DNA of 64,000 bases from Tepidiforma thermophila (lineage in GTDB: Bacteria; Chloroflexota; Dehalococcoidia; Tepidiformales; Tepidiformaceae), in contig NZ_PDJQ01000001.1 of assembly GCF_002563855.1 (NCBI RefSeq), positions 372,001 through 436,000 of the forward strand, in the 5' to 3' direction. The translations under genes and the position numbers were made by a program. Of this stretch, positions 42,125-58,177 are shown piece by piece (within the stretch, counting starts at the first letter, position 1; every line of letters begins with the position of its first letter). The notes under the pieces are model-generated. The model did not search any database. It worked only from the letters and a program-made list of their open reading frames with translations, and was not told the DNA's origin.

Positions 42125-42179
42125 GGGGTATGCGTTTCCTCCTATGGGTTGCTGCTGGTGTGAGGGTAGCGTGCGCATA

Positions 42180-42206
42180 TTAGCACTCGCAACGGGAGAG
42201 TGCTAG
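42180..42206. promoter_or_regulatory. CIRCE operator (HrcA site) of groES-groEL
   Basis: TTAGCACTC - 9 nt - GAGTGCTAG, matching the CIRCE consensus with one mismatch at the final base. On the minus strand a TAATAT -10-like box overlaps its end. HrcA would bind here and repress groES-groEL except under heat stress. hrcA itself is not in the window. Confidence 0.93.
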
Positions 42207-42374
42207 AGGGGTGCGGTCGACGGGCCGCCCGGGAGCGGCGGCCCCGGTGGGGCTTTGCGGCTGGCCGGGTCAGGTCGGATATTGCAAACCGCGAGTACCT
42301 TTGATACGGTTCGAGCAGCCTGGAGCGGAAGCCATGCAGCGGAAGCTCCAGAGCCCTTCAAAGGACCTGGGGCG

Positions 42375-43016
42375 ATGCGAGTCTCAAGAACTGTTCTGCT
42401 ACGGAGCATCCTGGCGGCGGGCGGGGGCCTGGCGGCCCTGAGCGGGATTGCGGCGGTGCTCGGCATTGGTGGCCCCGGCACAGGCTCGGCTGCCTGCCCA
42501 CCTGCGCCAGCGGGGGTCACGGTGGCAGCCTCGGGCGCGGTGGAATCGCTCGGTCTCCTGCCGGAGCTGGCCGACGCGGCGGCTGCCGAACGCCCCGGGG
42601 CCATCGATGCGGCGGGCCTGCCGCTGCGGCTGGAGGGCCTGGAGCCGGTGCCGGGATTTTCGGTGCGGTCGGTGGAGGTGCGAACGGCGGCCGGGGCGAC
42701 GCACGTGCGTGCATTCCTCGAGGACCCGGTCCAGCGCCGGGGGCTGCGCATTGCCGCATGGACCCAGTGCGGCGGGGTGACGCTGGTCCGGCCGGCATCG
42801 AGCCCGGTGGTACGGGAGCTCGACCTCGATATCCACGGCTGGGCGTTCCGGGCATTCGTGCCATCGGAGCGCGTGGCGGGCGGGTTCGGCCCGCGGGAGG
42901 CGTGGGCCGCGTCCGGGCAATGGGTCGTGGCGGCGGAGGGGACGGGGTTCACGTCGGATGGCGCGTTCATCGCTGCACTGGAGGCGGTGGTCCGCGGCAC
43001 GGGGAGGGAGGGCTGA
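42375..43016 (+). CDS. Predicted exported protein, unknown
   Basis: 213 aa. A twin-segment N-terminus (MRVSRTVLLRSILAAGGGLAAL) is a signal peptide or anchor. The mature part contains GFSVRSVEVRTAAGATHVRAFL, AAWTQCGGVTLVRPASS and WAFRAFVPSE. Two Cys could form a disulfide. No family recognised. ATG 42375 is chosen over upstream frame starts because the signal peptide begins there. The stop is followed one base later by the next start, so it heads a unit with the gene at 43018. Confidence 0.65.
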   Translation: MRVSRTVLLRSILAAGGGLAALSGIAAVLGIGGPGTGSAACPPAPAGVTVAASGAVESLGLLPELADAAAAERPGAIDAAGLPLRLEGLEPVPGFSVRSVEVRTAAGATHVRAFLEDPVQRRGLRIAAWTQCGGVTLVRPASSPVVRELDLDIHGWAFRAFVPSERVAGGFGPREAWAASGQWVVAAEGTGFTSDGAFIAALEAVVRGTGREG

Positions 43017-43017
43017 T

Positions 43018-43623
43018 ATGGTTCCCGTAAGGAAACACCTGGCGCGGCGTGCTGGTTGGTTCGTCCAGTCCGGTTGTGCCAGATTTTCGACCGCGATTGC
43101 GGCCGTCGTGCTCGCCGCGCTGACCGCATCCACCGTCGCGGCCCATTACGGGTATGTACGGGCTCCGCTGGCAGCCAGCGCGACCGTCACCTCCGAGTGG
43201 AGTCACGGGAGCAGCTACGGCGAGCGGGCGCTCGACCTTTCCGCGAGCGGGGTGAGCGTCTATTCGAACCTGCAAAACCCAAGCTCTTCAGACTACCTCT
43301 ATTACGAGGTGTACAACTACCAGGGAACCAGCTCATGTCCGGGCAGCAAATTTCACCTGTATCGGCATACAGGAAACACGTACTACTACTACGGAACGGT
43401 GAATTACGTTCATCTCGGCGACCATTCCTTTCTCTGGGGACGGTCGGCCGACATTGCTCCCGGGCAGTCTGAAACGTGGTTGTACGTTGGTTACACCGTG
43501 GCGAGCTGCGGAAGTCCCGCGCATCTGCACTTCGGCCACCTCGCGAATGACGGGATCATCGAGTACATCAATCCGCCTCAAGGTTCTACGGTCTCGCCTT
43601 CGCAGCTGATCCTGTACTATTAG
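43018..43623 (+). CDS. Exported protein with a degenerate M23/LytM-like fold
   Basis: 201 aa. A signal peptide/TM is at ~20-45. ATSEW-type strands are followed by GERALDLSASG, where M23 enzymes have HxGxD, and SPAHLHFGH, which keeps the HxH of LytM. It is Tyr-rich (NTYYYYGTV). Coding GC is clearly lower than the neighbours, suggesting acquisition or fast evolution. A Shine-Dalgarno (GGGGAGGGAG) lies in the tail of the preceding gene. If it is a peptidase the first zinc ligand is altered; a peptidoglycan-binding role is equally possible. Confidence 0.65.
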   Translation: MVPVRKHLARRAGWFVQSGCARFSTAIAAVVLAALTASTVAAHYGYVRAPLAASATVTSEWSHGSSYGERALDLSASGVSVYSNLQNPSSSDYLYYEVYNYQGTSSCPGSKFHLYRHTGNTYYYYGTVNYVHLGDHSFLWGRSADIAPGQSETWLYVGYTVASCGSPAHLHFGHLANDGIIEYINPPQGSTVSPSQLILYY

Positions 43624-43704
43624 CGCTGGTCAGTACTGATGATTCCACGACTGGGCGGATTCAACGACGGGAGCACGCCAGGAATTTACGGAGGAACGGA
43701 GCGG

Positions 43705-44370
43705 ATGATGCGAATTCATCGGTGGATGCGGCGCGTGCCGCTGGTGCTGCTGGCGGCACTTGTCGCTGCCGGGGCCGCGGGCTGCTCGGACGATGACGAG
43801 GACGCAGCAAAGCCGGCAGCAACGCCAGCGGCGACGCCAACCGCAGGGGCGAGAGCGACAGCGACAGCGACGGCCGGGCCCGGGGGAAGCGCGACGGTGG
43901 AACCCTCGCTGCAGCCCGTGATCGACGCCCTCGTCTCCCGGGATTGGGCGCGGATTGCGCCGCTGCTGGCCCGGCGGGATGAGCCGTGCATCACCGAGGT
44001 GCGGATCGATACGGAGGCGCCGCCGTGCCCGGCGGGTGCGGCAGCGGGGACGCAAGTGCCGGTATTCCCCGCCGCGAGCTGCCACAACTTCGTGTACGAG
44101 CACGAGCTCGAAGGGCTGTTCGTGCGGCGCCCGGAAGGGTACCCGGCGCCGCAGGTGTACGGAATCTTCCGGCCGGGTGAGAAGCACCCGCGGGTCGAGC
44201 GGCTCCCGGTTGGGACACTCGGTGTCGTGTTCTCGGATGGTTCGCTCGCGTTCATGGTGATGGTGCGGGACGGGAAAGTGGTGAGCGCCGACTTCGGTTG
44301 CGGGGCGTCGGCGAGCGACATGGCGGCGCTGGTGCCGGTCGACGCGTGGCTGATGGCGCCCCCCCGTTGA
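43705..44370 (+). CDS. Predicted lipoprotein, unknown
   Basis: 221 aa. N-terminal basic residues, a hydrophobic stretch (LVLLAALVAAGAAGC) with a lipobox Cys, then an Asp-rich and Ala/Thr/Pro linker. A folded domain of ~150 residues follows (PVIDALVSRDWARIAPLLAR, CHNFVYEHELEG, LPVGTLGVVFSDGSLAFMVMV). Four Cys outside the lipobox could form disulfides. The Shine-Dalgarno GGAGG lies 9 nt before ATG 43705. Third exported product in a row, but separated by 80 nt. Confidence 0.7.
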   Translation: MMRIHRWMRRVPLVLLAALVAAGAAGCSDDDEDAAKPAATPAATPTAGARATATATAGPGGSATVEPSLQPVIDALVSRDWARIAPLLARRDEPCITEVRIDTEAPPCPAGAAAGTQVPVFPAASCHNFVYEHELEGLFVRRPEGYPAPQVYGIFRPGEKHPRVERLPVGTLGVVFSDGSLAFMVMVRDGKVVSADFGCGASASDMAALVPVDAWLMAPPR

Positions 44371-44465: not shown

Positions 44466-45260
44466 ATGCCTGATTGCCTGGTCGAACGGGACGGTCCCGT
44501 GATGGTGCTTACGTTCAACCGCCCGGAACGGATGAACTCAATGGGGGGGACCCTGCTGGCCGACTTCCTCGCTGCCATCGACGAGGGGCGGCGCGACGAC
44601 CGGGTGAAAGCGTTCGTCGTGACCGGCGCCGGGCGGGCGTGGTGCGCCGGGGCCGACCTGCAGGCGATCGGCGCGGCGGGCGCGGACGAGCACGGGCGCC
44701 GGTTCGCGGCGGTCGACGACATCGGCGATGTGGGGCGGGTGGTGCTCGCGCTCCACCACTGCGACAAGCCGCTGATTGCGGCGGTGAACGGGGTGGCGGT
44801 GGGCGGGGGCTTCGGCCTCTGCTCGGCGTTCGATATCCGGATTGCGAGCGAAGAGGCGCGCTTCGCGACGGTGTTCATCAAGCGGGCGCTGGCGCCGGAC
44901 TGCGGGCTTTCGTACTTTTTGCCGCGGCTGGTGGGTCCGGAGCGGGCGGCCGAGCTGTTTTATTCGGGGCGGATGATCGATGCGCGGGAGGCGCTGGCCT
45001 TGGGGATTGTCTCGAAGGTGGTGCCGGCGGAGGAGCTGCTGCCGACGGCGCTGGCGGCGGCGCGGGAGTATGCGGCGATGCCGCCCTCGGCGATGACGTA
45101 CACGCGGCGGGCGATCCGGCGGTCGCTGGACGGCGTATCGCTGGCGGACCAGCTGGCGTTCGAGTGGGCGCAGCAGAAGGCCTGCCTTGGGAGCCCCGAG
45201 TTCCGGGAGGGGGTGCAGGCGTTCCTGGAGAAGCGGGAGCCGGACTACTCGAAGTTCTAG
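44466..45260 (+). CDS. Crotonase-superfamily enoyl-CoA hydratase/isomerase
   Basis: 264 aa. Crotonase fold: oxyanion hole GAGRAWCAGADL and NGVAVGGGFGLCSAFD. The two Glu of true hydratases are absent: GGGCELA is GGGFGLC here, and the PE of the second loop is replaced (FATVFIKRAL). An Asp in LAPDCGLSYFLPRLVG could serve as base, as in isomerase and Dci/MenB-like members. Thus isomerase, hydrolase or lyase activity is as likely as hydration. A Shine-Dalgarno AAGGAAG precedes the ATG. Confidence 0.88.
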   Translation: MPDCLVERDGPVMVLTFNRPERMNSMGGTLLADFLAAIDEGRRDDRVKAFVVTGAGRAWCAGADLQAIGAAGADEHGRRFAAVDDIGDVGRVVLALHHCDKPLIAAVNGVAVGGGFGLCSAFDIRIASEEARFATVFIKRALAPDCGLSYFLPRLVGPERAAELFYSGRMIDAREALALGIVSKVVPAEELLPTALAAAREYAAMPPSAMTYTRRAIRRSLDGVSLADQLAFEWAQQKACLGSPEFREGVQAFLEKREPDYSKF

Positions 45261-45585
45261 GGGCGGGCTCAGGCGGACCTACGGCCGCTACCATGCCGCC
45301 AGCATGAGCACGGCTCCCGGCCTCTGCACGGGCTCAGGCCCAGCGACGTCACCAGCTAGGGACGACGTACCTCAAACCCATGACCCAGCCGATCCGCCCC
45401 CCCACCGCCGATTTTGGGCCTCTTTACAAGTTGCGACACACGACCGCCGGATTCCAGGGTCGGAACGTATCCGGGAGCACCACAACAAGCTGGCACCCCC
45501 CACTATATGCCGCTAAGATTCAGTTAGGTCCTGGCGCCTCAACATACCTCAACCCGCGCGAAGGGCACTCGTGCCCGGACGACCA
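45261..45585. other. Gene-free left flank of the low-GC island
   Basis: 325 bp without a convincing gene; short open frames here have no family-like content. Composition falls from high GC near 45261 to AT-richer DNA after ~45415. It contains the left 13-bp direct repeat and a TAAGAT box near 45514 that could serve tcmP. Confidence 0.5.
45441..45453 (+). repeat. Left 13-bp direct repeat of the tcmP island
   Basis: CGACCGCCGGATT, repeated identically at 47381-47393; the pair brackets the low-GC DNA. Confidence 0.6.
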
Positions 45586-46470
45586 ATGACACCGGTACAG
45601 CAGTACATTCACCAAATCACGCTCCCAGACGATGATGGCATCGAGCCGAAACGCCGTGCCAAGCGCCACACCCGAAACAAGCTTGCCATTCTCGCGGCAT
45701 ATCTGCCCGCATTTACCAAAGCTTGCAACAAAGCTCCACAGAAATATTTCATCGATGCTCTTGCAGGGCCAGGCCTTTATCAGTTTGACGATCGCATCAC
45801 TATGGGGAGCACTCTCATTGCCCTTAAAACGGAACCGCCATTCAGCAAGGTTCTCGCGATGGAAAAGAACAAGAAATATGCCGACGCTCTTAAAACTAGA
45901 TGCAGTCGAATCGATCAAAACCGTGCCAGAGTTACGTCCGGCGATTGCAACGTCGCTCTCATCAACTTCATGGCAAATGAATTGAATCCCAGGGCACCGA
46001 TGCTTGTTTTTCTCGATCCGGAAGGATTCGAAGTATCTTGGCAAACTATTATCGCCTTGAGCAATTTCAAATCGGTCGGAACCAAACCTGAACTACTGAT
46101 CTATTTCAATGCGCCCGCTTTTAGGCGGTTCAATGTTACTACCAAACATTTATGGCGAATGAACGTCGATGCCGCCATGCCGAATGGTTCAGATTGGCGT
46201 AGTGCCTTGAAGAGATGTGAACAGGAGAACACTCCGATCGACCGCACCATGCTCGACATTTACGAAGAAGGCCTTAGACAGCTTGGCTACCTCAAGGTCA
46301 CTTCTCGGCCAATTGGTCCGCAACATCCAAACGCCAGTTCCAGGGTGTATTACTATCTAGTCCACGCAAGCGATTTCGATCCTGGCACCGACAAGGAGCC
46401 CCCGATGGAGTGGGTGTTCCGAAGACTCTGGGGTGCAGAATCCGATCAGGTAAGGTTGCCGAATTTTTGA
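45586..46470 (+). CDS. tcmP: Three-Cys-motif partner protein TcmP (methyltransferase-like fold)
   Basis: 294 aa, in clearly AT-richer DNA than the surroundings. The N-terminus has RRAKRHTRNKLAILAAYL, then a Rossmann methyltransferase-like series: FIDALAGPG (57-63, SAM loop), acidic AMEKN (91-95), SGDCN (118-122) and LVFLDPEGFEVSW (141-152, catalytic-loop position). The family is named from its regular pairing with a DUF5131 three-Cys protein, which stands convergent 2 nt away here. ATG 45586 is preferred to the GTG at 45571. The substrate is unknown; RNA, protein or nucleotide modification are all possible. Confidence 0.85.
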   Translation: MTPVQQYIHQITLPDDDGIEPKRRAKRHTRNKLAILAAYLPAFTKACNKAPQKYFIDALAGPGLYQFDDRITMGSTLIALKTEPPFSKVLAMEKNKKYADALKTRCSRIDQNRARVTSGDCNVALINFMANELNPRAPMLVFLDPEGFEVSWQTIIALSNFKSVGTKPELLIYFNAPAFRRFNVTTKHLWRMNVDAAMPNGSDWRSALKRCEQENTPIDRTMLDIYEEGLRQLGYLKVTSRPIGPQHPNASSRVYYYLVHASDFDPGTDKEPPMEWVFRRLWGAESDQVRLPNF

Positions 46471-46472
46471 AT

Positions 46473-47216
46473 TCAAACCAGTCTGGGCATTTCATCAAAA
46501 ATCTGACCATCAAGTATGCGTCCTGCTCGTTTTTTGCCGACGCGTCTACCATTCTCATCGAATGCACCCCACTGTTTGAAGAAGAATGGGACACCAGCAG
46601 CCACGCATTGATCGCGCAAGTCACGCACCCACGAAGGGTCCATGCGCCGAGCACGCGCGCCTGACTCGCCCCCACAGATCACCCAGTGGATGCCATGAAG
46701 ATTGAGCCTGAGTGGTCCAAGTAATGGCTCACAGGAGATGAAGCGTATTTTTGCAGGAATTTCACGTAGAGAATCAGCACGCTGAACCCATCGTTGATTT
46801 TCTATGGATGTACCCATCCAGACGTTATCCGGCCATGGATCTAGTTCTGCGAGTTTTCTTGTGAGGTCGCGGGCACGCTCGGTCCGTTTGGTCAGAACTT
46901 GAAATGTATGCCAGGAGGCCTCGCGCATCGTTTCGAAAACCTTCACGACAAAGGCATCAGGAACATTTTCGTGGAAAAGGTCACTCATACTGTTTACAAA
47001 AATCAGTTTAGGACGCTTCCAGAGTAACGGCAGCTTTAGTCGATTGGGGCGAAGTTGCAGGTCGAAGCCGTACTCGAAAGGATGCCCAGAAATGCCTCGC
47101 CACCTTTCAGCCATCGTCTCGGCGTAACAGTGCGCGCATCCGGGGCTGACCTTGGTGCAGCCTGTGATAGGGTTCCACGTAGCCTGCGTCCATTCGATTT
47201 TTGAGCTCTGAGCCAT
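46473..47216 (-). CDS. DUF5131 (phage Gp37/Gp68-like) three-Cys protein
   Basis: 247 aa. The N-terminus is conserved (SKIEWTQATWNPITGCTKVS), with Cys20, Cys27 and Cys30 in a C-x6-C-x2-C array. The array resembles but is not identical to the radical-SAM Cx3Cx2C loop. Further blocks are FVNSMSDLFHENVP, TFQVLTKRTERA, NVWMGTSIEN, FISCEPLLGPL, WVICGGESG and FFKQWG, all hallmarks of Gp37/Gp68. It probably binds an Fe-S cluster (inference). The start MAQSSKIEW has a TACAAT box upstream. It is convergent with tcmP and AT-richer than the flanks. Confidence 0.88.
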   Translation of the reverse strand: MAQSSKIEWTQATWNPITGCTKVSPGCAHCYAETMAERWRGISGHPFEYGFDLQLRPNRLKLPLLWKRPKLIFVNSMSDLFHENVPDAFVVKVFETMREASWHTFQVLTKRTERARDLTRKLAELDPWPDNVWMGTSIENQRWVQRADSLREIPAKIRFISCEPLLGPLRLNLHGIHWVICGGESGARARRMDPSWVRDLRDQCVAAGVPFFFKQWGAFDENGRRVGKKRAGRILDGQIFDEMPRLV

Positions 47217-47242
47217 GACCGGACCTCTGCCCCGCCGGCCGC

Positions 47243-47248
47243 ATTGTA
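47243..47248 (-). promoter_or_regulatory. -10-like TACAAT of the DUF5131 gene
   Basis: TACAAT on the minus strand, 26 nt before ATG 47216; the leader contains GCAGAGG. Confidence 0.4.
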
Positions 47249-47380
47249 ACGCACGTGGCAGGATGTGGGTTGACCGCTGCGTTCCTGTCCCTCGCCAAGT
47301 ACACGCTGGTCGGGTGGCTGAACAAGGGGGCACGCCTTTCAGATATACGCAACCCGGTAGGCGCCGGAGCGCCCCCCTCC

Positions 47381-47393
47381 CGACCGCCGGATT
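47381..47393 (+). repeat. Right 13-bp direct repeat of the tcmP island
   Basis: CGACCGCCGGATT, identical to 45441-45453, the same strand, 1940 bp apart. Confidence 0.6.
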
Positions 47394-47551
47394 GGCATAT
47401 TGCTACACGACCACAGGCCGCCCCGTCCGCTGCCGCCGTTTGCGCCGGCGGACGGTCATCTACCCCCATGCCCCGCACCGCGGCCATCACCGTCAGGAGC
47501 CTGCCGGAGAGGGCCAACCCAGTCAGGCCAGCGTGAACCGGTCGCCGCCGG

Positions 47552-47596
47552 CCCGCCGGCTCACCTGAGGGCCCAGCCGGCCCAGGCGAGGGCGGC
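47552..47596 (-). pseudogene. Remnant of the mgtC 3' end behind mgtA
   Basis: 45 bp identical at 44 positions to 55930-55974, the last codons and stop region of the MgtC/DUF4010 gene. On the minus strand it reads ALAWAGWALR-stop beside the true ALAWAGWALS-stop. It starts 13 nt behind the mgtA stop. No other part of mgtC is present here. Confidence 0.85.
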
Positions 47597-47609
47597 CGCT
47601 CCGGCGGGG

Positions 47610-50195
47610 TCAGGCGGCGGGGGTGGGAGCCGGGGGCGGCGGAACGGGCGCGGGCACGGGCGCGGGTGCCGCAGCCTGGGCGAAAACTTTGCGCTTCGCC
47701 AGTTCGACGAGCGCCAGGTAGGTGACAACCATTCCCCCGAGCGCGAGGAGGAACCTGCCCGGCAGCGGCTCGAAGTTCAGCGCGCCCGCTGCCGGCGAAT
47801 AGGGAATGAACGCCGCGACGGCGACGCAGCCCAGCGTCGTTGCGAGCAGCGGCAGCGAGGGCCGGCTGCGCCAGAACGGCACCCGGTGCGTCCGCAGCAC
47901 GAAGATCACCAGCGTCTGGGTGCACAGCGACTCCACGAACCAGCCGGACTGGAAGCGTGTTTCGCCGGCGTTGAAGACGCCGAGCATCAGGGCGAAGGTC
48001 AGGTAATCGAAGACGGAGCTGACCGGCCCGAATACGACCATGGCCCGGCTGATAGAGCGCAGGTCCCAGTGGGCGGGCCGGCGGGTGAGCTCCTCATCGA
48101 CGGCATCGGTCGGGATGGTCAGCTCGGAGACGTCGTAGAGGAAGTTGTTGAGGAGGATCTGGGTCGGGAGCATCGGGAGGAAGTCGAGGAAGAGGGAGGC
48201 ACCCGCCGCGCTGAACATGTTGCCGAAGTTCGAGCTCGTGGCCATGAGGATGTACTTCACGGTATTGGCGAAGGTGCGGCGGCCTTCGAGCACGCCGTCG
48301 GCGAGGACGCCGAGGTCTTTTTCGAGCAGGACGACATCGGCAGCGGCCTTGGCGACGTCGGTGGCGGTATCGACGGAGATGCCGATATCGGCCTGGCGGA
48401 TGGCCGGGGCGTCGTTGACGCCGTCGCCGAGGAAGCCGACGTCGCGCCCGCCGGCCTGCGCGGCCTGCACCAGCAGCTTCTTTTGCTCGGGGGTGACGCG
48501 GGCGAAGACGGTGGTCCGGGCGACGGCGTCGCGGAGTTCGCCCGGGCTGAGCCCTTCGAGGTCGGCCCCAGTGAGGACGCCGCGGACGGGGATGCCGACG
48601 CGGTCGCAGACATGGCGGGCGACGGCCGGGTGGTCGCCGGTGAGGATTTTGACTTCGATGCCGAGGTTGGCGAGCCGTTCGATCGCGGCCTTCGCCTCGG
48701 GACGCGGCGGGTCGCTGAAGCCGAGGAAGCCGACGAGGCGGAGTCCTTCGGCGGCCTGCGCGGCGAGTTCGCGGCCGTCGTCGGGCCGGATAGCGACGGC
48801 GATCACCCGGAGGCCGTCATCGGCCAGGCGGGCGAGGGCCGCGGCGGCCGGGGGATGCCACTCCTCGCCCCAGCCGTCAGCAGCTGTGCACCGCGCGAAG
48901 AGCTCCTCGGCGGCGCCTTTGACGACGACCCACCGTTCCCCCGCGGGGGATTCGACGGCCAGGGCGGCATAGCGGAGCTGGTAGGAGAAGGGGAGTTCGT
49001 CGCGGAGCGTCCAGCCGGCGCGCGCGGCCGCGGCCTGCTGGATGCGCTCATCGGCGGCGAGGACGGCATCGAGGGCGTTGCCGGACGTTTCGTGGATGCC
49101 GGCGAGCAGCCAGCTGGCCGTCCAGCCGAGGAGCGTGTCCTCGCTGCCGGGCGGACAGCCGAGGGCTTCGAGGACGATGGAGCCTTCGGTGAGGGTGCCG
49201 GTTTTATCGGAAAAGAGGACCTCGAGGTTGCCGAGGTCTTCGATGGCGACCAGCCGGCGGACGATGACCTTCCGCTCGGCGAGCCTGCGCCCGCCGGTGG
49301 CGAGGCTGACGGTGACGATCGCCGGGAGGAGCTGCGGGGTCAGCCCGACGGCGATGGCGAGCGCGAAGAGCAGCGATTCGAGGAGGCCGCGGCCGAGCCA
49401 GATGTTTGCTGCGAGGATAAAGGCGGTGAGGGTGGCCGTCACGCCGACCAGGAAGAGGGAGAAGTTGCGGAGGCCGCGCTCGAACTCGGTGGGCCGGCCA
49501 GCCTCGTGCAGGCCCGCGGCGATGGCGCCGACCATTGACGCCGGGCCGGTGGCGACGACGACGGCGCGCCCGCGTCCGCTGCGCACCACCGTGCCGGAGA
49601 GGAGCATGGTGGCGAGGCCCGGTTCGCCGCCGGCTGCCGCCCGTTTCTCCGCGGGGAGCGATTCGCCGGTGATGATCGATTCGTCGACCGTGAGGTCGTT
49701 CGCTTCGATGACGCGGGCGTCGGCCGCGACGATGTCGCCGACTTCGACGACGAGGATATCGCCGGGGACGAGCGTTTCGGCGTCGACGCGCTGGATTTCG
49801 CCGTCGCGGAAGACGCGGGCCGTGCGCGTGAGCCGTTCTTCGAGCATGCGGGCGGAGCGGTCGGCGCGGAATTCGTCGAAGAAGCCGAGGGTGACGGAGA
49901 GGAGGACAATGGCGACGATAATGGCGGCATCGAGGCGCTCGCCGACGATGAAGGAGACCGAGACCGCAGCAAGGAGGAGGCCGAGGAGCGGGTTCTTGAG
50001 CTGGCGGAGGAGGATGGTGAGCGCGGGGTGGCCGCCGCGGGGCAGGGAGTTGGGGCCGTGGACGGCGAGGCGGCGTGCGGCTTCGGCGCTGGAGAGGCCG
50101 CCGGGGCCGGACCCGAGACGTTCGAGCACGTCGGCGGCGTCGCGCGCGGCCCACTCGGCGAGCGCGGGCGCCGGGCGGCGGCGCGGCTGGTTCAT
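47610..50195 (-). CDS. mgtA: Mg2+-importing P-type ATPase
   Basis: 861 aa P-type ATPase of the Mg transport (P3B, MgtA/MgtB) group. Phosphorylation motif DKTGTLTEGS, actuator TGES in ITGESLPAEK, membrane LTPQLLPAIV (P-type M4), hinge GDGVNDAPAIRQADIGI, and about ten transmembrane helices. The C-terminus adds an unusual Pro/Ala tail (PVPAPVPPPPAPT). It imports Mg2+ at the cost of ATP. The MgtC- and CorA-type genes are on the same strand 6-8 kb upstream, which suggests a dispersed Mg homeostasis region. Confidence 0.94.
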   Translation of the reverse strand: MNQPRRRPAPALAEWAARDAADVLERLGSGPGGLSSAEAARRLAVHGPNSLPRGGHPALTILLRQLKNPLLGLLLAAVSVSFIVGERLDAAIIVAIVLLSVTLGFFDEFRADRSARMLEERLTRTARVFRDGEIQRVDAETLVPGDILVVEVGDIVAADARVIEANDLTVDESIITGESLPAEKRAAAGGEPGLATMLLSGTVVRSGRGRAVVVATGPASMVGAIAAGLHEAGRPTEFERGLRNFSLFLVGVTATLTAFILAANIWLGRGLLESLLFALAIAVGLTPQLLPAIVTVSLATGGRRLAERKVIVRRLVAIEDLGNLEVLFSDKTGTLTEGSIVLEALGCPPGSEDTLLGWTASWLLAGIHETSGNALDAVLAADERIQQAAAARAGWTLRDELPFSYQLRYAALAVESPAGERWVVVKGAAEELFARCTAADGWGEEWHPPAAAALARLADDGLRVIAVAIRPDDGRELAAQAAEGLRLVGFLGFSDPPRPEAKAAIERLANLGIEVKILTGDHPAVARHVCDRVGIPVRGVLTGADLEGLSPGELRDAVARTTVFARVTPEQKKLLVQAAQAGGRDVGFLGDGVNDAPAIRQADIGISVDTATDVAKAAADVVLLEKDLGVLADGVLEGRRTFANTVKYILMATSSNFGNMFSAAGASLFLDFLPMLPTQILLNNFLYDVSELTIPTDAVDEELTRRPAHWDLRSISRAMVVFGPVSSVFDYLTFALMLGVFNAGETRFQSGWFVESLCTQTLVIFVLRTHRVPFWRSRPSLPLLATTLGCVAVAAFIPYSPAAGALNFEPLPGRFLLALGGMVVTYLALVELAKRKVFAQAAAPAPVPAPVPPPPAPTPAA

Positions 50196-50386
50196 CGCGG
50201 GGCGGCCGGCGCGGGCCGGGTGCCGCGCCGGGCCGGGGGAGCGCTGGTCATGCTTTCCAAGGGTAGCGGGTTGCGGTAAACGGATGGGGCCGCGCGGGCC
50301 CGTCAGGGCCGGCCGCCCGGCCGCTGCGGGAGGGGTGTGGCAGGTGCGATCCTCGGAAGGACCTTCCAGGCGAGAGTAGTCATCCT

Positions 50387-51301
50387 ATGGAATGCCCTTC
50401 CTGTCATGCCGTGCAGCCCGACGACGCCCGGTTCTGCGACCAGTGCGGTGCAGCGCTGCAGCCAGGCGCCGCCGCCGGAACCGCGGGGCCGGAGGCTCCT
50501 GCCGCGGCCGGGGCGCCGGCTCCTGCGGAGCCGCCTGCTCCCCCGGCGCCGCCGCCAGCGCCGGCAGCGGCAGGCGCGAAAGGCGGCGGAGCCGGCCCGT
50601 GGATAGCGATAGGGGCGCTCGCCGCCGTGCTCGCCGCGGCCGGCGCGGCCGCTTGGTACCTGACCGGCGATGACGGCACGGAGGTCGTGCCGGTTTCGCC
50701 CGATCGGACGGCGACGGCAACCCGGCCCCCGGCGAGCCCGACCCGGGCGACCAGGACGGCGACGCAGCCGCCCGGGGCGGGCGCGACGGCAACGACGACT
50801 GCGACACAGGCCGCGACCGGCAGTCCCGCAGCGGGAAGCACGCAGCTCGCGACGGCCACCGCAAGCCCGGCCGGGGCAACCCCCACGCCGGTGCCCCCGA
50901 CGGCTACCCCGGTTCCCCCGACGCCAACGCCGCGGCCGCCGACGGCCACGCCGACGCCCCGACCGCCCACCGCCACCCCGGTGCCCCCGACAGCCACGCC
51001 GACGCCGCGTCCGACCCTTGCCCGGCTCACGGGCCGGGTGTACATCCGGTTTGCGGAGACCGGCGAGACCCGCATCTGCGATTACGGCTGCGTGATCGAG
51101 CTGCGGGGCAGCGCGGGCGTGTTCTACGCCGCGGCAGGGCCCGATGGCCGGTACTCGCTCGAGCTTCCGCCGGGCACCTACGAGGCGAACGACGTGACGT
51201 TCGACTTCTGCGCGGTTCCGCCGGCGGTGACGCCGCCGTTCGTGACCGTGACCGGCAACGCCAACCAGGACTTCGTGACCAGCGGGTGCATTCTGTTCTA
51301 G
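50387..51301 (+). CDS. Zinc-ribbon, single-TM protein with Thr/Pro stalk and beta domain
   Basis: 304 aa. N-terminal zinc ribbon CPSCHAVQPDDARFCDQCG (C-x2-C-x11-C-x2-C), a Pro/Ala linker, and one TM (WIAIGALAAVLAAAGAAAW, ~70). Then a ~120-residue TPTPRPPTATP-type stalk, and a ~95-residue beta-sandwich at the C-terminus (RVYIRFAETGETRICDYG, PDGRYSLELPPGTYE, TVTGNANQDF) of carboxypeptidase-regulatory-like style. The ribbon faces the cytoplasm and the stalk faces outward. Ligand unknown; related by ribbon to the next two genes. Confidence 0.8.
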   Translation: MECPSCHAVQPDDARFCDQCGAALQPGAAAGTAGPEAPAAAGAPAPAEPPAPPAPPPAPAAAGAKGGGAGPWIAIGALAAVLAAAGAAAWYLTGDDGTEVVPVSPDRTATATRPPASPTRATRTATQPPGAGATATTTATQAATGSPAAGSTQLATATASPAGATPTPVPPTATPVPPTPTPRPPTATPTPRPPTATPVPPTATPTPRPTLARLTGRVYIRFAETGETRICDYGCVIELRGSAGVFYAAAGPDGRYSLELPPGTYEANDVTFDFCAVPPAVTPPFVTVTGNANQDFVTSGCILF

Positions 51302-51454
51302 GGGCGGCGCGGGCACGCGGCCGTGCGAGGTGTCCGGGTGAGCGAATCTCTCTCCACGAGCACTGCTACGCACCTGTCCGGCTGGCGTCCGGGAACGACG
51401 GTAGTGCGGCTATGGTCCGGCAGGCGAGCGACGGGAGGCGCCTCTGGCGGGGTC

Positions 51455-54400
51455 TCACCGTTTCGGGGAGGCGGTGAACTGTACGGTCCAGGTGCCCTGC
51501 GCATACGGCTCGCCAAACGCCATTTCGTCCCAGGTCCAGCCAAACTGGCCGCTGAGTTGTCCGCCCGGGGCGAGAGCGGCATCGATAAACGAACGGTGCG
51601 AGCAGGCATTTTCGTCGGTTGCACCGGTGCAGAGGTACCCCTGGATTCGGTCTTTGGTAATCGTGAGCTTGCTCCCCAGGGGGTAATCAGGCTTGGGGAC
51701 GCTGGCCAAGTTCAGGCTGAAACAGCTCTCATCCCGGGGACAGCCTGGTTCGAAGACGCAGTGCAATCCGAATTCTTCGCCATCATCCCAAAATTTACGT
51801 TCGAGCCTGCACGCGGAGGGCGCGATGCGTTCGACAAATGAGAGGAGATACAGCGCGTACGGGTCTTTGAACGTCCCGTTGACCTCGAGCCGGACGTCCA
51901 CGAGCGTCCACTCTGTGGGCGGTTTGGCTGAGGCCGCAGCGTCGGTCTCGTGGACGCGCGGGGCGGCAACGACGTCCGCGTCGGTGCGGGGGCCGGGATT
52001 CGGCGGGAAGACGACCTCGACCGGCACCCAGTCCTCCTCCTGCTGCCCCGAGGCGTACAGGTAGGCGGTGTACCGCTGGCGGAGCGGGGTGACGCTCGAA
52101 CGCTCGACCGTCGTGGGGTTATCGTCGCTGCCGCGGAACCCGGGCTCGAGGTCGTCGCGGCCGGCGTCTTTCCGGGTCGCCAGGGCGGCGATGAGGTAGA
52201 CGTTCTCCCTGTCCGCCGTTGAGCGCTCGGTGTCGACGCCCGTGATGCGGAGGACCTGGTGGTCGCCGTCCGCGGTTTCGAGGCGCAGGAGGAGATTGTA
52301 GTCGGCGATCGGGTCGCCAAGCTTTGCGCGGCTCCAGCTCCGGTACTTCGCAAGGTCCGCCCTCGGGACGGCGATCCGGATCGCCTGCAGGTCGGGGGTG
52401 ATATCAATCGTGGCGTCGGGCCAGCTCTCCTTCACATAGGGCTCCCAGCCGAGGTTGCGGAGGAAGGCCGGGCCGGTGAGCGCTTCGCGGGAGCCGACCT
52501 GGAGCGACGCCTCGCGGGAGCCGCTGCGGAAGATTTCGTGGAGGTCGAGGCGGCCTGCGGCGATGGCGGCGGGGTTGTACTGGAGGTTCCAGGCGGCCAT
52601 GCGGACGCGGGTTGCCGGGTAGTAGTCGGCCGGGCGGGCTGCCGCCCCCCGGGCGACGCCGATGACCTGGACGGGCGGGATATTCTGGGCGTACAGCCAG
52701 TTGCACCGGCCGCCGGGGCAGTAGCCGCGGGTACCCTCGGTGATGGCACGGATATCTTTGAGCAGGTACCAGTCGCTCCCGGTCACGGCCCAGGAGACAG
52801 CGGCGGAATAGAGGAACTGGGCCCACCCGAGGGCCGTACCTACTGTCTGCCTGGTTTGCTCGGAGAGGTCCACGATCCTCAGTCCGAAGCTCGTGACCAG
52901 TGTGTCATCCGTAGCGTCGAACAGGAGCTGCCCCCCGGCGAGCGCCGTTGTCGCCCACTGGATGGTGCCGTAGATGGCGGGGCTGGAGGCCGTCTCGTAT
53001 TGGGCCTGCCACCAGTTCAGGACCTGGTCGGCTACGGTCGCGGCCAGGAGGCTCGGGCCGCCGCTGCTGATCCCCAATACCCAGAGCGCCACCGGCAGAT
53101 AGCGGAGGAACGCCTCCGTTCGCCAGTCCTTCAGGTAGTCGAGCAATGACCAGTTCTCGATTGCGGCCCGGGAGAAGAGCCGGAGCCGGAGGGTCATTTC
53201 AGGGGTCCCGGCCCAGCCGCCCTGCCCGGTGAGCTGCCGCTCGAGGTCGGGGAGCATGCCGGGCGGCAGGATGACATCGGCGAAGAGGGCTTCGCCGTAG
53301 ACAACGGCGAGGTCGATGTCGGCGATGGCGCGTGACCGCACGAGGGCAGCCGTCAGCTCGATGCCCCAGGGGGCGTAGCGGGCGAATGCGGTCTCCAGCG
53401 AATCCTGGAGGGCAACCCCGCTATCGAGGAGGACGGCCTGGTAGTTTCCCCGCTCGCCGAACATTTCCGACCAGGCATCCCGGTTCTGGAACCAGCGGTC
53501 GCGGAGCTTGAGGAGGGTGAGCACGCCGGCACGGTAGTGCTCGAACGCCACGGGCCCGCCCGCGCCGAGGGCGGGGACGACGCCCGCCCGGCCGGCCTCG
53601 AGGACTGCCCCGGCGCCGGCGAGACGGAGGAGCGTCTCGGCGTACTCCTTCTCCCATTTCGAGAACTCGATGGCGACGGGCGCCGCAGCTGCGGAGCGGC
53701 TGGCCAGGAGGGAGGCAGAGGGGCTGGCCGCCTGCTCAAGTTCCTCATCCGGCGGGACCGGGTGCGCCTCGAGCCAGGCGCGCGCTTCCTCCCGCCATGC
53801 TGCCCGGTCGGCGAACGCGAGGCGTTCGGCGTCGGCGAGCCCGGTCGGCTCGAGGTCCGCAGGGCGGGTGAACGGCTTCGGCGAGGCTACCGCAACGGTC
53901 CATGGCGCGGGGACACCGGCCAGCGCTGCCACGAGCCGGTCGCCGACACGCTCGGTCGGGAGGGGCTGCCAGGCGCCGCTCGGGGCGAGGGCGACGATGA
54001 CGGCGTCGGCGCCGGCCCCGGCGGCGGGCAGGCGAATTTCGATGGGGTCTTCGTGGACGACGCCGGTGACGGAGACAAAGGTGTAGGCCGGGCCGGCGAA
54101 CCTCCAGGCCGGCGATTCGGGCGGCGCCTCGAGCCGGCGGAGGTCGAGGTACTCGCTGTAGAGGATGTCGCCGGGCGGGACGGTCAGCTCGGCGCCGCCC
54201 GGGTGGACGAGCCGGACGGGGGCGTGGCGCTCGAGGCCGTTCGGGCCCGGGCCCGGGGCGGGACCGAGGCGTTCGATGCGCGACTCGCGTGGGATGGCGG
54301 TCGGCTCGCCGTCGCCGTCGCCGCGGAAGCGGAGCGCAAGCAGGGCGGCCCCGCCGACGAGGATGACGGCGGCGACGGCGAGGACCGCCGTCCGCGCGCG

Positions 54401-54835
54401 ACCGGTGCGGCGGTGGGACTGCTTCGCCGTTCCCCGGGGCTGCGCCGCGACCGGCGCGGGAGCCGGGGCCAGCGAAGCGCCGCAGGCTCTGCAAAACTTC
54501 GCCGCCGGGTTGACCTCGGCGCCGCAGGCGGGGCAGGCCGGTACAGCGACGGGAGCAGGTGGGACCGGCCCCTGCGCAGCGGAGCCGAGCGCGGTCCCGC
54601 ACACCCGGCAGAAGAGCGCCGTGGGGCTGGCCTCGGCGCCACAGGCCGGGCAGGTGCGGACGGGCCCAAGGGCACCCTCGTCCCCTGGCACCCCACAGGT
54701 GACCGGGAGACGGCGACCGCATGCACGGCAGAACCTCGCACCAGGGCCGTGCGGCGCCCCGCAGGCCGGGCAGGCGGAGCGGCCTTCGTCGGGCACGCCT
54801 GGCGTTCCGGTCTTGTTCTCGTCAGTCGCTTCCAT
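51455..54835 (-). CDS. Large membrane-anchored protein with three zinc ribbons
   Basis: 1126 aa. Three C-x2-C ... C-x2-C ribbons at ~23-42, ~62-82 and ~100-122 (for example CPACGAEVNPAAKFCRACG), then a TM (AVLAVAAVILVGGAALLAL, ~150-168). A very large extracytoplasmic part of ~950 residues follows. Visible elements are a ZU5/beta-like block (VRLVHPGGAELTVPPGD), a helical region around 380-640 and beta-rich ends (TWTVQFTASP). No enzymatic motif recognised. A GAGGAG Shine-Dalgarno supports ATG 54835 (GTG at 54838 is alternative). Neighbours carry the same ribbon-TM layout. Confidence 0.8.
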   Translation of the reverse strand: MEATDENKTGTPGVPDEGRSACPACGAPHGPGARFCRACGRRLPVTCGVPGDEGALGPVRTCPACGAEASPTALFCRVCGTALGSAAQGPVPPAPVAVPACPACGAEVNPAAKFCRACGASLAPAPAPVAAQPRGTAKQSHRRTGRARTAVLAVAAVILVGGAALLALRFRGDGDGEPTAIPRESRIERLGPAPGPGPNGLERHAPVRLVHPGGAELTVPPGDILYSEYLDLRRLEAPPESPAWRFAGPAYTFVSVTGVVHEDPIEIRLPAAGAGADAVIVALAPSGAWQPLPTERVGDRLVAALAGVPAPWTVAVASPKPFTRPADLEPTGLADAERLAFADRAAWREEARAWLEAHPVPPDEELEQAASPSASLLASRSAAAAPVAIEFSKWEKEYAETLLRLAGAGAVLEAGRAGVVPALGAGGPVAFEHYRAGVLTLLKLRDRWFQNRDAWSEMFGERGNYQAVLLDSGVALQDSLETAFARYAPWGIELTAALVRSRAIADIDLAVVYGEALFADVILPPGMLPDLERQLTGQGGWAGTPEMTLRLRLFSRAAIENWSLLDYLKDWRTEAFLRYLPVALWVLGISSGGPSLLAATVADQVLNWWQAQYETASSPAIYGTIQWATTALAGGQLLFDATDDTLVTSFGLRIVDLSEQTRQTVGTALGWAQFLYSAAVSWAVTGSDWYLLKDIRAITEGTRGYCPGGRCNWLYAQNIPPVQVIGVARGAAARPADYYPATRVRMAAWNLQYNPAAIAAGRLDLHEIFRSGSREASLQVGSREALTGPAFLRNLGWEPYVKESWPDATIDITPDLQAIRIAVPRADLAKYRSWSRAKLGDPIADYNLLLRLETADGDHQVLRITGVDTERSTADRENVYLIAALATRKDAGRDDLEPGFRGSDDNPTTVERSSVTPLRQRYTAYLYASGQQEEDWVPVEVVFPPNPGPRTDADVVAAPRVHETDAAASAKPPTEWTLVDVRLEVNGTFKDPYALYLLSFVERIAPSACRLERKFWDDGEEFGLHCVFEPGCPRDESCFSLNLASVPKPDYPLGSKLTITKDRIQGYLCTGATDENACSHRSFIDAALAPGGQLSGQFGWTWDEMAFGEPYAQGTWTVQFTASPKR

Positions 54836-54893
54836 CACCAGCTCTCCTCGCTCCCGGTTTCAGCCGGGCGACCGGCCTCGGTGCAGGGCCCCG

Positions 54894-55844
54894 TCAATCG
54901 AAGGGGTTGATGTCTTCGCACTCCTCTATCGACTCGGCGACCGCCGACAGGCGGGCCTCCACCTCGGGCGGGGGCTCCGGCGTATCGCCGAAGTCCCGGA
55001 GGGCCTGCAGGATCTCGCCGCGCTCGGCGGCGGCCAGCAGGGTGCGGAGCTGTCTGACCGCTGCCTCGTGGTAGTCGCGCGCGTCGGGCGGCGGCTTCGC
55101 CGCAGCCATGCGATTGACGTAGGTGCGGAGGGGGCCGGCGATCGCCTTGCTCAGCTTCTCCGAGTCCTGCACCAGCTCCGGGTCGCTGAAGTACCGCTCA
55201 GTCTCCTCCCCAAACGTTTTCGTTGCGACGCACACCGCCCGGACGTACGCCTCGTCGCTGCCGGTCCCGCCGTCATCGCGGGAGCGGAACACGATGAACG
55301 CACCGGCGACAGCAGCGGCGACCACCAGCACCACCGCCAGGGCGGCCCACGGACTGACGCCGCCCCGCCGCGCAGCCGGCGGCTGCGCGGGCGCTGGAGC
55401 CCGGGCAGGCGGCCGGGCCGGGCGCGGGGCAAACGGCTGCACCCGCGCACCGGCGGGCCGAGCCGCTGGGGTGGCCGGCGGAGCCGCCGGGGCGGGCGCG
55501 GGCGGGGCAGGGGCGCCGGCGAGCCGGGCGCCGCAGCTCCGGCAAAACTTTGCGTTCAGGGCGTTCTCGGCACCGCAGACCGGGCAAACCGGCGCGACCG
55601 GCGCCGCTGGCGGAGCCGCAGGGGCGGCGTCGAGCCGGGCCCCGCACTGCTCGCAGAAGTGCGACCCCGCCTCGTTCTCTGCGCCGCAGGCCGGACACCG
55701 CACCGCCGCCGGCGCGGGCGGGGCCGGCTGCACCAGCCGCGCACCGCATTCGTGGCAGAAATGCGCGCCCGGCCCGTTCTCGGCGCCGCAGGCGGGGCAG
55801 GTCAGCCGGGTCGACCCTCGACCGCTGAACTCCGGGGTGTCCAC
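54894..55844 (-). CDS. Zinc-ribbon membrane protein with a helical extracytoplasmic domain
   Basis: 316 aa from the GTG. Three ribbons (CPACGAENGPGAHFCHECG, CPACGAENEAGSHFCEQCG and CPVCGAENALNAKFCRSCG). A Pro/Ala/Arg linker, one TM (LAVVLVVAAAVAGAFIVF, ~195-213) and a ~105-residue helical domain with two Cys follow. The frame opens at 55898, but a TACGTT box ends 7 nt before GTG 55844, so the shorter start is used. It is the third member of the ribbon-TM set; function unknown. Confidence 0.75.
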   Translation of the reverse strand: MDTPEFSGRGSTRLTCPACGAENGPGAHFCHECGARLVQPAPPAPAAVRCPACGAENEAGSHFCEQCGARLDAAPAAPPAAPVAPVCPVCGAENALNAKFCRSCGARLAGAPAPPAPAPAAPPATPAARPAGARVQPFAPRPARPPARAPAPAQPPAARRGGVSPWAALAVVLVVAAAVAGAFIVFRSRDDGGTGSDEAYVRAVCVATKTFGEETERYFSDPELVQDSEKLSKAIAGPLRTYVNRMAAAKPPPDARDYHEAAVRQLRTLLAAAERGEILQALRDFGDTPEPPPEVEARLSAVAESIEECEDINPFD

Positions 55845-55851
55845 GGCCTCG

Positions 55852-55857
55852 AACGTA
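55852..55857 (-). promoter_or_regulatory. -10-like TACGTT before GTG 55844
   Basis: TACGTT on the minus strand, 7 nt from GTG 55844, matches the leaderless pattern of the window. Confidence 0.35.
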
Positions 55858-55938
55858 GGGCGCGGACGGGGCGTGCGGCGAGGGCCGACCGGGCACATCC
55901 GCAGCCGCCGTTGGGCCGCGCCCGCCCGCCCCGCCGGC

Positions 55939-57195
55939 TCAGCTGAGGGCCCAGCCGGCCCAGGCGAGGGCGGCGGTGACGATGACGCCGGGCCAGACTT
56001 CGGCGGCGAAGCGGCGGCCGCCGCTGGCCGCGGAGAGGACCATCTTCGTCACGGAATTCGTCGTGAAGGCGGCGAGGATCGGCACAACGGCATCGGCGGG
56101 GTCGACCCGCCCGCCGGCGGCGAGCCCGGCGACGGCGATCGCGGCGGCATGGGTATCGGCGAAGCCGGCAACCGCAGCCGAGAGCAGGACGCCGCGGTTG
56201 CCCAGCCAGTCGCCGAGGGCGGCGGAGACAAAGAGCACGGCCGTGACCGTGGACGCGAAGAGCACCGCCGTCTTCAGGTCGAAGGCGCGGCCGCCGGGTT
56301 CGTGCGCGTCGGCGGCGGCATCGCGCAGGGCGCGCAGGGCGAAGATGGCGCCGTAGCCGACGGCGGCAACGCCGGCGAAGGCCATCGCCGGCCAAAGCTG
56401 CTCGAGCGTGCGGCGGTCGGTGGCGCCGACAACGATGACCATCTGCACGACGGTCGCGACGGTTGAGAGCACGGCGGCGGCGACGGCGGGGGTGCGCAGG
56501 GCGGGGGTCTCGCGCGCGCGGGCGCCCATCGCGGCGATCGTGGCCGAGCTGGAGACGAAGCCGGCGGCCAGCCCGGAGAGCGGCAGGCCGACGCGGGCCC
56601 CGAGCAGCCGCACCGCGGCGTAGCCGGCGCCTCCGATCGCCATGACGATGACGACGAGCCGCCAGATGGCGAAGGGGTTGAACACGCCGTATGGCCCGAT
56701 CCGCTCGTTGGGCGCAAGGGGGAGGATGACGAGCGCGGCCCCGGCGAAGAGGAGGGCATCGTGCACCTCCTGTTCGGTGAGCGCGCGGGAGACGAGGCGG
56801 TGGAGCTGCTCGCGGGCGGCGAGGAGGATAGCGACGACGACGGCGATGCCCGCGGCAAGCTGCGGCTCCTGCTGGGCGAGAGCGCCGAGGAGGAAGGTGA
56901 CAATGACGGCCACTTCGGTGGTGAGGCCGGGGTCGGTGCGGTCGCCGAGGATGTAGGCGGCGAGGACGGCGAGGGCGACGAAGCCGAGCGCGACGGCGAG
57001 AACGACCCCGCCGCCGATGGCCATGGCGATGCCGCCGGCGAGGGCGACGAGGGCGAAGGTGCGGATGCCGGCCGCGCCGCGGGCAGGGCCTTCGCCTTTG
57101 CGGCGCTCGCGCTCGGCGCCGAGGAGGAGGCCGATGCCGAGGGCGACCGCGAGCCGCACGCCTTCTTCGTCGAAACGGACGCCTGCAACGTCCAT
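55939..57195 (-). CDS. MgtC/SapB-DUF4010 membrane protein
   Basis: 418 aa, ~12 transmembrane helices. The N-terminal MgtC-like domain has RLAVALGIGLLLGAERERR, GIRTFALVALAGG and LGDRTDPGLTTEVAVIVTFLLGA. A DUF4010 domain follows (GLAAGFVSSSATIAAM, FADTHAAAIAV, FTTNSVTKMVLS). MgtC proteins adjust Mg2+ use and F-ATPase or phosphate uptake under Mg starvation. It is followed by corA upstream on the same strand. The last 45 bp are duplicated behind mgtA. Confidence 0.9.
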   Translation of the reverse strand: MDVAGVRFDEEGVRLAVALGIGLLLGAERERRKGEGPARGAAGIRTFALVALAGGIAMAIGGGVVLAVALGFVALAVLAAYILGDRTDPGLTTEVAVIVTFLLGALAQQEPQLAAGIAVVVAILLAAREQLHRLVSRALTEQEVHDALLFAGAALVILPLAPNERIGPYGVFNPFAIWRLVVIVMAIGGAGYAAVRLLGARVGLPLSGLAAGFVSSSATIAAMGARARETPALRTPAVAAAVLSTVATVVQMVIVVGATDRRTLEQLWPAMAFAGVAAVGYGAIFALRALRDAAADAHEPGGRAFDLKTAVLFASTVTAVLFVSAALGDWLGNRGVLLSAAVAGFADTHAAAIAVAGLAAGGRVDPADAVVPILAAFTTNSVTKMVLSAASGGRRFAAEVWPGVIVTAALAWAGWALS

Positions 57196-57223: not shown

Positions 57224-58177
57224 TCAGAACCACCCGCGCCGGCGGAAGAAGAGGGCCATCGAGGCGGCGATGCCGGCGATGGCGAGGAGCATCGCGCCGA
57301 AGCCGTAGTTGCTGCGCAGGCCGGGGATCTCCTCGAAGTTGGTGCCGAAGATGCCGGTGATCACGGTGGCCGGCAGCGCCAGCGCGGCGACGACGGCGAG
57401 GACTTTCATCACCTCGTTCATCTTGTTATTGAGGGTGCTGAGGTAGGTGTTGAGGGCAACTTCGGCATCGTCGCGCAGCTCCTCGAGGGCGAGGTCGACC
57501 CGCAGGAGGTGGTCGTAGATGTCGCGGAAGTAGATGACGTTCGACGGCTGGACGAGGGCGAATTCGCCGCGGCCGAAGCGGAGGACGACGCTGAGCAGGG
57601 GCGCCATGGTTCGGCGGATGGAGCCGGCGGTGCGCCGCATTTCGAGGACGCGCTGGCTGAGGCCGCCGTTGCGGTCGCCTTCGATGATGAGGTCGGCGAG
57701 GGCGTCGAGCTGCTCGCTCATGGAGGAGACGCGCGGGAGGAAGCTATCGACGACGCGGTCGAGCACTTCGTAGAAGAGGCCGTCGGTGCCCGGGCGGACC
57801 GCAAGGCCCTGCTCGAGGGCATGGACGACGCCGTCGACCTCGGGCGCGGTCGCGGGGTCGTCGCGGTAGGTAATGAGGAAGTCGGGCCCGAGGAAGATGT
57901 CGAGCTCTTCGAGGATCGGCTCGACGGTGCCGGGCTTCATCGCGAGGACGACGATGAAGAGGTAGCTGCCGAAGTCGTCGATCTTGGGGGTATGGAGGTA
58001 GGGGGAGAGGCAGTCTTCGATGGCGAGCGGATGGAGGTGGTAGCGGGAAGCGAGTTCGAGGAGGTCGTCGCGGTCGGCGCCGGAGAGGTCGTACCAGCGG
58101 GGCCCGCCGTCGAGTTCGCCGGGGCGCCAGCTGCCATCGATGCACGTCCAGGTGCGCACGTGCGCATCGTAGGGCAC
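57224..58177 (-). CDS. corA: CorA-family Mg2+/Co2+ transporter with a GTN selectivity motif
   Basis: 317 aa. Cytoplasmic domain with HPLAIEDCLSPYLHTPKIDDFG and FITYRDDP, a long stalk helix, then TM1 and TM2 at the C-terminus. The filter loop reads TGIFGTNFEEIPG, where CorA normally has GMN and ZntB GxN; here Met is Thr. The tail RRRGWF is short and basic. Mg2+ is the likely ion given the neighbouring mgt genes, but ion choice may be altered. The gene is 28 nt from the mgtC-like gene, so an operon is likely. Confidence 0.92.
   Translation of the reverse strand: MPYDAHVRTWTCIDGSWRPGELDGGPRWYDLSGADRDDLLELASRYHLHPLAIEDCLSPYLHTPKIDDFGSYLFIVVLAMKPGTVEPILEELDIFLGPDFLITYRDDPATAPEVDGVVHALEQGLAVRPGTDGLFYEVLDRVVDSFLPRVSSMSEQLDALADLIIEGDRNGGLSQRVLEMRRTAGSIRRTMAPLLSVVLRFGRGEFALVQPSNVIYFRDIYDHLLRVDLALEELRDDAEVALNTYLSTLNNKMNEVMKVLAVVAALALPATVITGIFGTNFEEIPGLRSNYGFGAMLLAIAGIAASMALFFRRRGWF

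Follow-up and report, generated by a model that had tools for sequence, protein, structure and literature searches.

A duplicated mgtC 3′ end beside a probably acquired mgtA gene in Tepidiforma thermophila

Behind the magnesium transporter gene mgtA of Tepidiforma thermophila is a short stretch that reads as the end of another gene, mgtC, which itself lies on the far side of a group of zinc-ribbon genes. How did this second end come to be there? The window analysed here is a stretch of 64,000 nucleotides; G000 denotes the T. thermophila genome from which it comes and G001–G004 denote genomes of the same genus. The features of the locus, in window coordinates, are as follows.

44466–45260, plus strand: crot, crotonase/enoyl-CoA hydratase gene, left flank of the locus (PF00378, E = 1.3e-54)
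45261–47551, unstranded: TcmP and DUF5131 cassette of low GC content (~50%) between crot and the mgtC relic (TIGR04474, PF07505)
47552–47596, minus strand: relic copy of the mgtC 3′ end, comprising the last 36 nt including the stop codon and 9 nt beyond; the junction with mgtA also occurs in G004
47610–50195, minus strand: mgtA, magnesium-translocating P-type ATPase (TIGR01524, 741 bits against a cut-off of 611)
50330, unstranded: end of the similarity between G000 and G004; in G004 a copy of the crot 3′ end starts here, inside the common word GCGGG
50387–51301, plus strand: zinc-ribbon protein, 304 aa (PF13240)
51455–54838, minus strand: zinc-ribbon protein, 1127 aa (PF12773, PF13240)
54894–55898, minus strand: zinc-ribbon protein, 334 aa (PF13240, PF12773)
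55930–55974, minus strand: native repeat copy, the mgtC 3′ end and 9 nt past its stop codon
55939–57195, minus strand: mgtC-like gene with MgtC and DUF4010 domains (PF02308 and PF13194, both above cut-off)
57224–58177, minus strand: corA-like gene, 28 nt upstream of mgtC (PF01544)

Two copies of the mgtC 3′ end

Direct comparison of positions 47552–47596 and 55930–55974 gives identity at 44 of 45 positions, with the similarity ending abruptly on both sides, and places the start of the left copy 13 nt past the mgtA stop codon (47610–47612, minus strand), both as stated in a preliminary description of the locus. That description also had the two copies encode the same last residues and a stop, which holds for the stop and the preceding residues but not for the last residue: owing to the single mismatch, the relic reads AALAWAGWALR-stop and mgtC reads AALAWAGWALS-stop. 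A chance origin is ruled out by the 44/45 identity and by the ~8e-17 matches with at most one mismatch that the base composition of the window would lead one to expect within it.

On the right lies the native 3′ end of the mgtC-like gene, on the left a relic. The encoded protein, a fusion of MgtC and DUF4010 for which the action of a classical MgtC is putative, scores 55 bits with PF02308 against a Pfam cut-off of 31.4 and also matches DUF4010; no NCBIfam model matched it. The neighbouring corA-like protein passes its Pfam cut-off and reaches 164.6 bits with TIGR00383, under that model’s cut-off of 200.75.

Searched at up to three mismatches, the 45-mer has two copies in the 2.74-Mb genome, the reversed pattern used as a control giving 0 matches. 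If the stretch were a terminator-like or REP-like repeat with no relation to mgtC, the GC-rich hairpin that could form in both copies would fit, but copies would be expected behind many unrelated genes, which is not what the genome contains, and the left copy matches mgtC coding sequence through and beyond the stop codon; this explanation is refuted, and the identification of the 45 bp as an mgtC relic stands. Additional parts of mgtC, for which the surroundings of 47.6 kb had been proposed as the place to look, are not apparent: a blastn search of the whole gene against 45268–55938 gives the relic stretch as the sole strong match (36 nt, E = 6.6e-12), and the five remaining rows, at E = 0.003 and GC-rich, cannot credibly be taken for additional mgtC parts. 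Separately, a contig scan of genomes returned one locus, in T. flava.

Distribution and gene order of mgtA

An mgtA orthologue is present in two of the six genus genomes (G000 counted), namely G000 and G004, at 92% identity. The relic–mgtA junction is found at the orthologous place in G004, where window positions 47565–50330 align at 89.9% identity and both flanks of the window are collinear; the complete structure of relic, mgtA and mgtC is carried by these two genomes only. G001, G002 and G003 have mgtC–corA, in another context that is common to all three, and lack an orthologous mgtA; the ORF lists of G001 and G004 show mgtC and corA still paired, and G002 and G003 have collinear DNA there. 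Across the phylum, mgtA is patchily distributed, since 50 of 301 genomes give a match at E ≤ 1e-150 and the best match outside the genus reaches 54%. The gene was probably acquired horizontally; no donor of the mgtA block was found, and positions 47400–47800 gave no blastn match to plasmids. Four-fold divergence between G000 and G004 is 0.19 for mgtA, near the values for mgtC (0.28), corA (0.22) and a sigma-factor gene (0.22), which fits the presence of mgtA in the common ancestor of the two genomes.

The simplest origin of the relic had seemed to be an ancestral mgtC lying next to mgtA and later moved or lost. Either such a gene or a tandem duplication of an mgtC–mgtA segment, deleted to the last 36 nt, would leave a relic in the orientation observed behind mgtA, and tandem duplication with two deletions would give an identical product. 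The relatives lend this no support: in all three with an mgtC gene but lacking an mgtA orthologue, mgtC lies elsewhere, and tblastn detected neither mgtC nor corA beside mgtA at the eight outside mgtA loci examined (12.6–18 kb read). As more events would be needed, and the region near 47.6 kb holds no more of mgtC, we consider this origin improbable.

A young crotonase copy in G004

About 20 bp stand in G004 at the place of the TcmP/DUF5131 cassette, and because of this absence the cassette is probably a later insertion in the sequence of G000. The zinc-ribbon region is found in G000 only; its 1127-aa gene has no orthologous DNA within the genus, and a search of 25 other genomes for its 334-aa protein gave a partial match of 37% at best.

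In place of the zinc-ribbon region, G004 has a second copy of the crot 3′ end beside mgtC. This copy shows four differences from the G004 crot gene in 152 bp, and the two have in common three G004-derived states relative to G000, G001, G002 and G003; the copy is consequently younger than the species split, or has been converted. It is joined through a 5-bp microhomology, GCGGG, and since the junction falls exactly where the G000 sequence continues into the zinc-ribbon region, the zinc-ribbon arrangement is the likelier older state.

The opposite order is doubtful. In it, the insertion of mgtA alone would have duplicated ~0.2 kb, made up of the crot 3′ end, a spacer and the mgtC 3′ end, exactly the layout seen in G004, and the zinc-ribbon genes would later have replaced the crot copy in G000. 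The three changes in 152 bp that are confined to the crot copy make it too young for this unless it was converted (P ~8e-5 or less, computed for 155 sites, if it predates the split at a divergence of at least 0.10 per site), and the zinc-ribbon breakpoint in G000 would have had to hit the junction of mgtA and the crot copy by accident within a 308-bp gap.

The two copies of the duplicated stretch look homogenised in each genome after the split of G000 and G004. For G000, the one difference in 45 bp corresponds to P values of 0.05 to 0.001 at assumed divergences of 0.10–0.18, modest evidence for such homogenisation. A short conversion tract, the other origin put forward in the preliminary description, survives in this modified form.

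Proposed history of the locus

The probable explanation, as judged from the sequences compared, is that a foreign block bearing mgtA entered between the convergent 3′ ends of crot and mgtC in the ancestor of G000 and G004. The insertion itself would have duplicated the mgtC 3′ end through illegitimate or homology-assisted recombination, one copy closing the working gene and the other coming to lie on the crot side, behind mgtA. No direct crot–mgtC junction, or empty site, was found, and as crot and mgtC are not adjacent in G001–G003, the junction before insertion is one that we infer.

We likewise infer the order of the subsequent events. The two mgtC ends, as direct repeats, would have recombined since the insertion. 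In the G004 lineage, the mgtC-end homology was most likely used to copy the crot 3′ end next to mgtC, an event that would have closed at the GCGGG microhomology and deleted the zinc-ribbon region; on the G000 side, the TcmP/DUF5131 cassette would later have parted the relic from crot. The zinc-ribbon genes probably belong to the mgtA block, and their arrival together with mgtA, suggested earlier, may well have taken place; alternatively, given its restriction to G000, the region may be an arrival later than the split. Joining of the NHEJ type through Ku is unlikely, with a Ku match in none of the six genus genomes (in the control search, one of 14 genomes matched, Bacillus subtilis).

Comparison with known systems

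Genomic islands at gene 3′ ends are bordered on both sides by att direct repeats of the gene’s 3′ end. The 45-bp repeats could thus be attL and attR of an 8.4-kb site-specific element at the mgtC 3′ end that lost its integrase or never carried one: near-identical direct repeats border the block at both ends, one of them is a gene 3′ end that completes the target gene, and the displaced mgtC tail stays on the crot side in G004. However, no integrase was identified in the block and no recombinase in a Pfam scan of the nine main genes from crot to corA; there is no tRNA in the window. Nor has use of the putative att site by further elements or by phages come to light in the genome, viral contigs and phages searched: the 32-bp repeat core is absent from the viral contigs, the repeat has no phage match, and it occupies two genomic places only. 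A literature search for islands at protein-gene ends found nothing. An island of this kind is unlikely, if the least so of the alternatives to insertion of a foreign mgtA block.

Insertion of the block has a likeness in Arabidopsis, where transposed genes are described as bordered by genic direct repeats homologous to the target site, with a circular recombination product as the inserted form in the model (Woodhouse et al. 2010, PMC2869330). The Tepidiforma locus similarly has an inserted gene between genic direct repeats homologous to its target; in that account, however, plant genes moved within a genome, whereas here the locus is bacterial and the gene is probably of external origin. Homology-facilitated illegitimate recombination, summarised as using homology at one end and illegitimate joining at the other (PMC3240628), would fit the junction of the G004 crot copy at GCGGG. 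That process is described there for incoming linear DNA, in contrast to the G004 event, which would have taken place within the chromosome.

The mgtC 3′ end might also be a recurrent landing site for separate cassettes (mgtA, zinc-ribbon and TcmP/DUF5131), with the repeats as recombination handles, a reading we hold to be a long shot. If it were true, the mgtA cassette could be lost, regained or reshuffled, and magnesium transporter genes could cluster without a dedicated integrase.

The locus is a fairly ordinary trace of bacterial gene gain, a new example and not a new kind of system. On the history favoured here, it would be a readable record of a foreign transporter gene placed beside the functionally related mgtC–corA pair, with border repeats that were afterwards involved in additional loss and copying. 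The process would be visible at different stages in two complete genomes that are close relatives, making the locus useful for the study of gene-cluster assembly in Chloroflexota.

Duplication of the mgtC 3′ end

The locus comprises, in order:

44466–45260, plus strand: crotonase gene, first in the locus
45261–47551: TcmP/DUF5131 pair, ~50% GC
47552–47596: relic of the mgtC end
47610–50195, minus strand: mgtA, which clears the NCBIfam cut-off for magnesium-translocating P-type ATPases
50387–55898: three zinc-ribbon genes
55939–57195, minus strand: mgtC (PF02308 + PF13194; MgtC+DUF4010 protein)
57224–58177, minus strand: corA, last in the locus

Pairwise comparison of the relic with the end of mgtC (55930–55974) gives identity at 44/45 positions, with likeness breaking off abruptly at both edges and a chance expectation of ~8e-17 per window from the window base composition, which upholds the match reported in the preliminary description. 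The right copy (minus strand) consists of the final 36 nt of the mgtC gene and 9 nt past its stop, and the relic starts 13 nt past the mgtA stop, the spacing originally given. The encoded ends, AALAWAGWALR-stop in the relic and AALAWAGWALS-stop in mgtC, were described as the same; AALAWAGWAL and the stop are indeed shared, and the sole mismatch alters the final residue (R vs S).

Whole-genome pattern search of G000, the genome holding the window (a single contig of 2.74 Mb), places the repeat at 2 positions and no more at ≤3 mismatches, with 0 matches for the reversed control pattern; the 45 bp is not found behind many unrelated genes. Its main rival role would be as the boundary of a site-specific island, with which the locus layout agrees, yet none of the 9 genes scanned was recognised as a recombinase, and the repeat is without further copies in G000, viral contigs or phages at the sensitivity used. 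Between 45268 and 55938, around the 47.6 kb where more of mgtC had been anticipated, only the relic is convincing, five weak rows (E = 0.003) being set aside. The repeat is real and meaningful, and the relic stems from mgtC, as first proposed.

mgtA and mgtC in relatives

Just two of six Tepidiforma genomes, G000 itself and G004, have an mgtA orthologue, their proteins being 92% identical; the top-scoring matches in G001, G002, G003 and G005 reach 34–40%. Across the phylum, 50 of 301 genomes have mgtA matches at E ≤ 1e-150, the best beyond the genus at 54% identity; near mgtA at 8 outside-genus loci (12.6–18 kb each), neither mgtC nor corA was found by tblastn with the window proteins, which very diverged forms would escape. 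mgtC is found in G000–G004 and was not detected in G005, a genome only 72% complete. In G001–G003, mgtC and corA share one common context, unlike that of G000/G004, without an mgtA orthologue and with no crotonase gene adjoining mgtC. Because this context differs, and the DNA following mgtC in G001 (T. flava) lies at another place in G000 and G004, the crotonase–mgtC neighbourhood arose by rearrangement, most simply before the G000/G004 split.

An ancestral mgtC beside mgtA, as initially proposed, is disfavoured by the 8 outside loci and by the different location of mgtC in G001–G003. Rather than the leftover of an older neighbour, the relic is most likely a by-product of insertion of the mgtA block beside an mgtC that stayed intact.

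The genes after mgtC in G001–G003 sit ~570 kb from mgtC in G000 (G000:C1:994001-1010000, locus L100), a displacement by a rearrangement that broke the DNA close to the 3′ end of mgtC. In G001, the DNA after mgtC holds a short repeat (locus L073, about 8687–8782) with many matching places in G000. Positions 42001–44000 are ~100% identical per kilobase to T. flava, the neighbours at 37–41 and 44 kb being 71–97% identical, which looks like recent between-species exchange.

The G004 locus

Collinear with the window on both flanks (83–97% identity per kilobase), G004 carries the crotonase gene, ~20 bp, the mgtC-end relic, mgtA, a second crotonase 3′ end, ~20–25 bp and mgtC; its relic–mgtA junction is shared with G000. 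Missing between these flanks are the TcmP/DUF5131 pair and the zinc-ribbon genes, and the other five genus genomes hold no DNA orthologous to the zinc-ribbon block, only short matches of ≤~200 bp. The low-GC TcmP/DUF5131 cassette has the hexamer GGCTCA near both ends, perhaps by chance. Within the G004 relic is a 27-nt palindrome with 13-bp arms around one base (locus L072, about 8887–8913; G004:C1:1166887-1166913), possibly a new convergent terminator, with no second occurrence in five genus genomes searched.

Age and order of events

At four-fold sites, G000 and G004 diverge by 0.13 in the crotonase gene, 0.19 in mgtA, 0.28 in mgtC, 0.22 in corA and 0.22 in the sigma-factor gene; the mgtA value lies near those of the last three, which fits its presence in the G000/G004 ancestor. 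The G004 crotonase copy differs from the G004 gene at 4/152 sites, both have the G004 state at 3 sites against G000–G003, and 3 changes are confined to the copy. On the branch of a pre-split copy at least ~0.10 changes per site are expected, giving P ~8e-5 for ≤3 changes in 155 sites, where, as for the P values below, sites are assumed independent and four-fold sites are a mere proxy for neutral change; the copy was thus made, or overwritten, within the G004 lineage. Both mgtC ends of G000 have a common stop codon type and other states missing in G004, with 1 difference in 45; like reasoning (P 0.05 to 0.001) gives a modest sign that they were homogenised.

The G000–G004 alignment on the mgtA side stops at 50330, just beyond the word GCGGG, which also occurs in the crotonase gene at the start point of the G004 copy. 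Had the zinc-ribbon genes come later than this copy, their breakpoint would need to match that junction exactly in a gap of 308 bp; had they come first, the copying of the crotonase end would simply have removed them from G004. We infer the latter as the better order, because the copy is young and the coincidence is otherwise needed. The original insert is then likely to have been mgtA with the zinc-ribbon genes (8,333 bp, 47597–55929) between mgtC-end repeats, in keeping with the initial suggestion that the zinc-ribbon genes may have entered then.

Mechanism and parallels

In the simplest account, illegitimate or homology-assisted recombination would have placed acquired DNA between the converging ends of the two genes and duplicated the mgtC end, and the direct repeats would have recombined with each other afterwards. 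Ku has a match in 0 of the 6 genus genomes. Homology-facilitated illegitimate recombination is described as homology at one end with illegitimate joining at the other (PMC3240628), and transformation is also able to generate duplications via alternative pairing of repeats (PMC3784515). Arabidopsis has gene insertions flanked by direct repeats that are genic and share homology with the target, with insertion of a circular product proposed (PMC2869330); the mgtA locus resembles these in that direct repeats from a target gene border the insert. The mgtA–mgtC locus belongs to an already known kind, insertion or joining with repeats or duplication.
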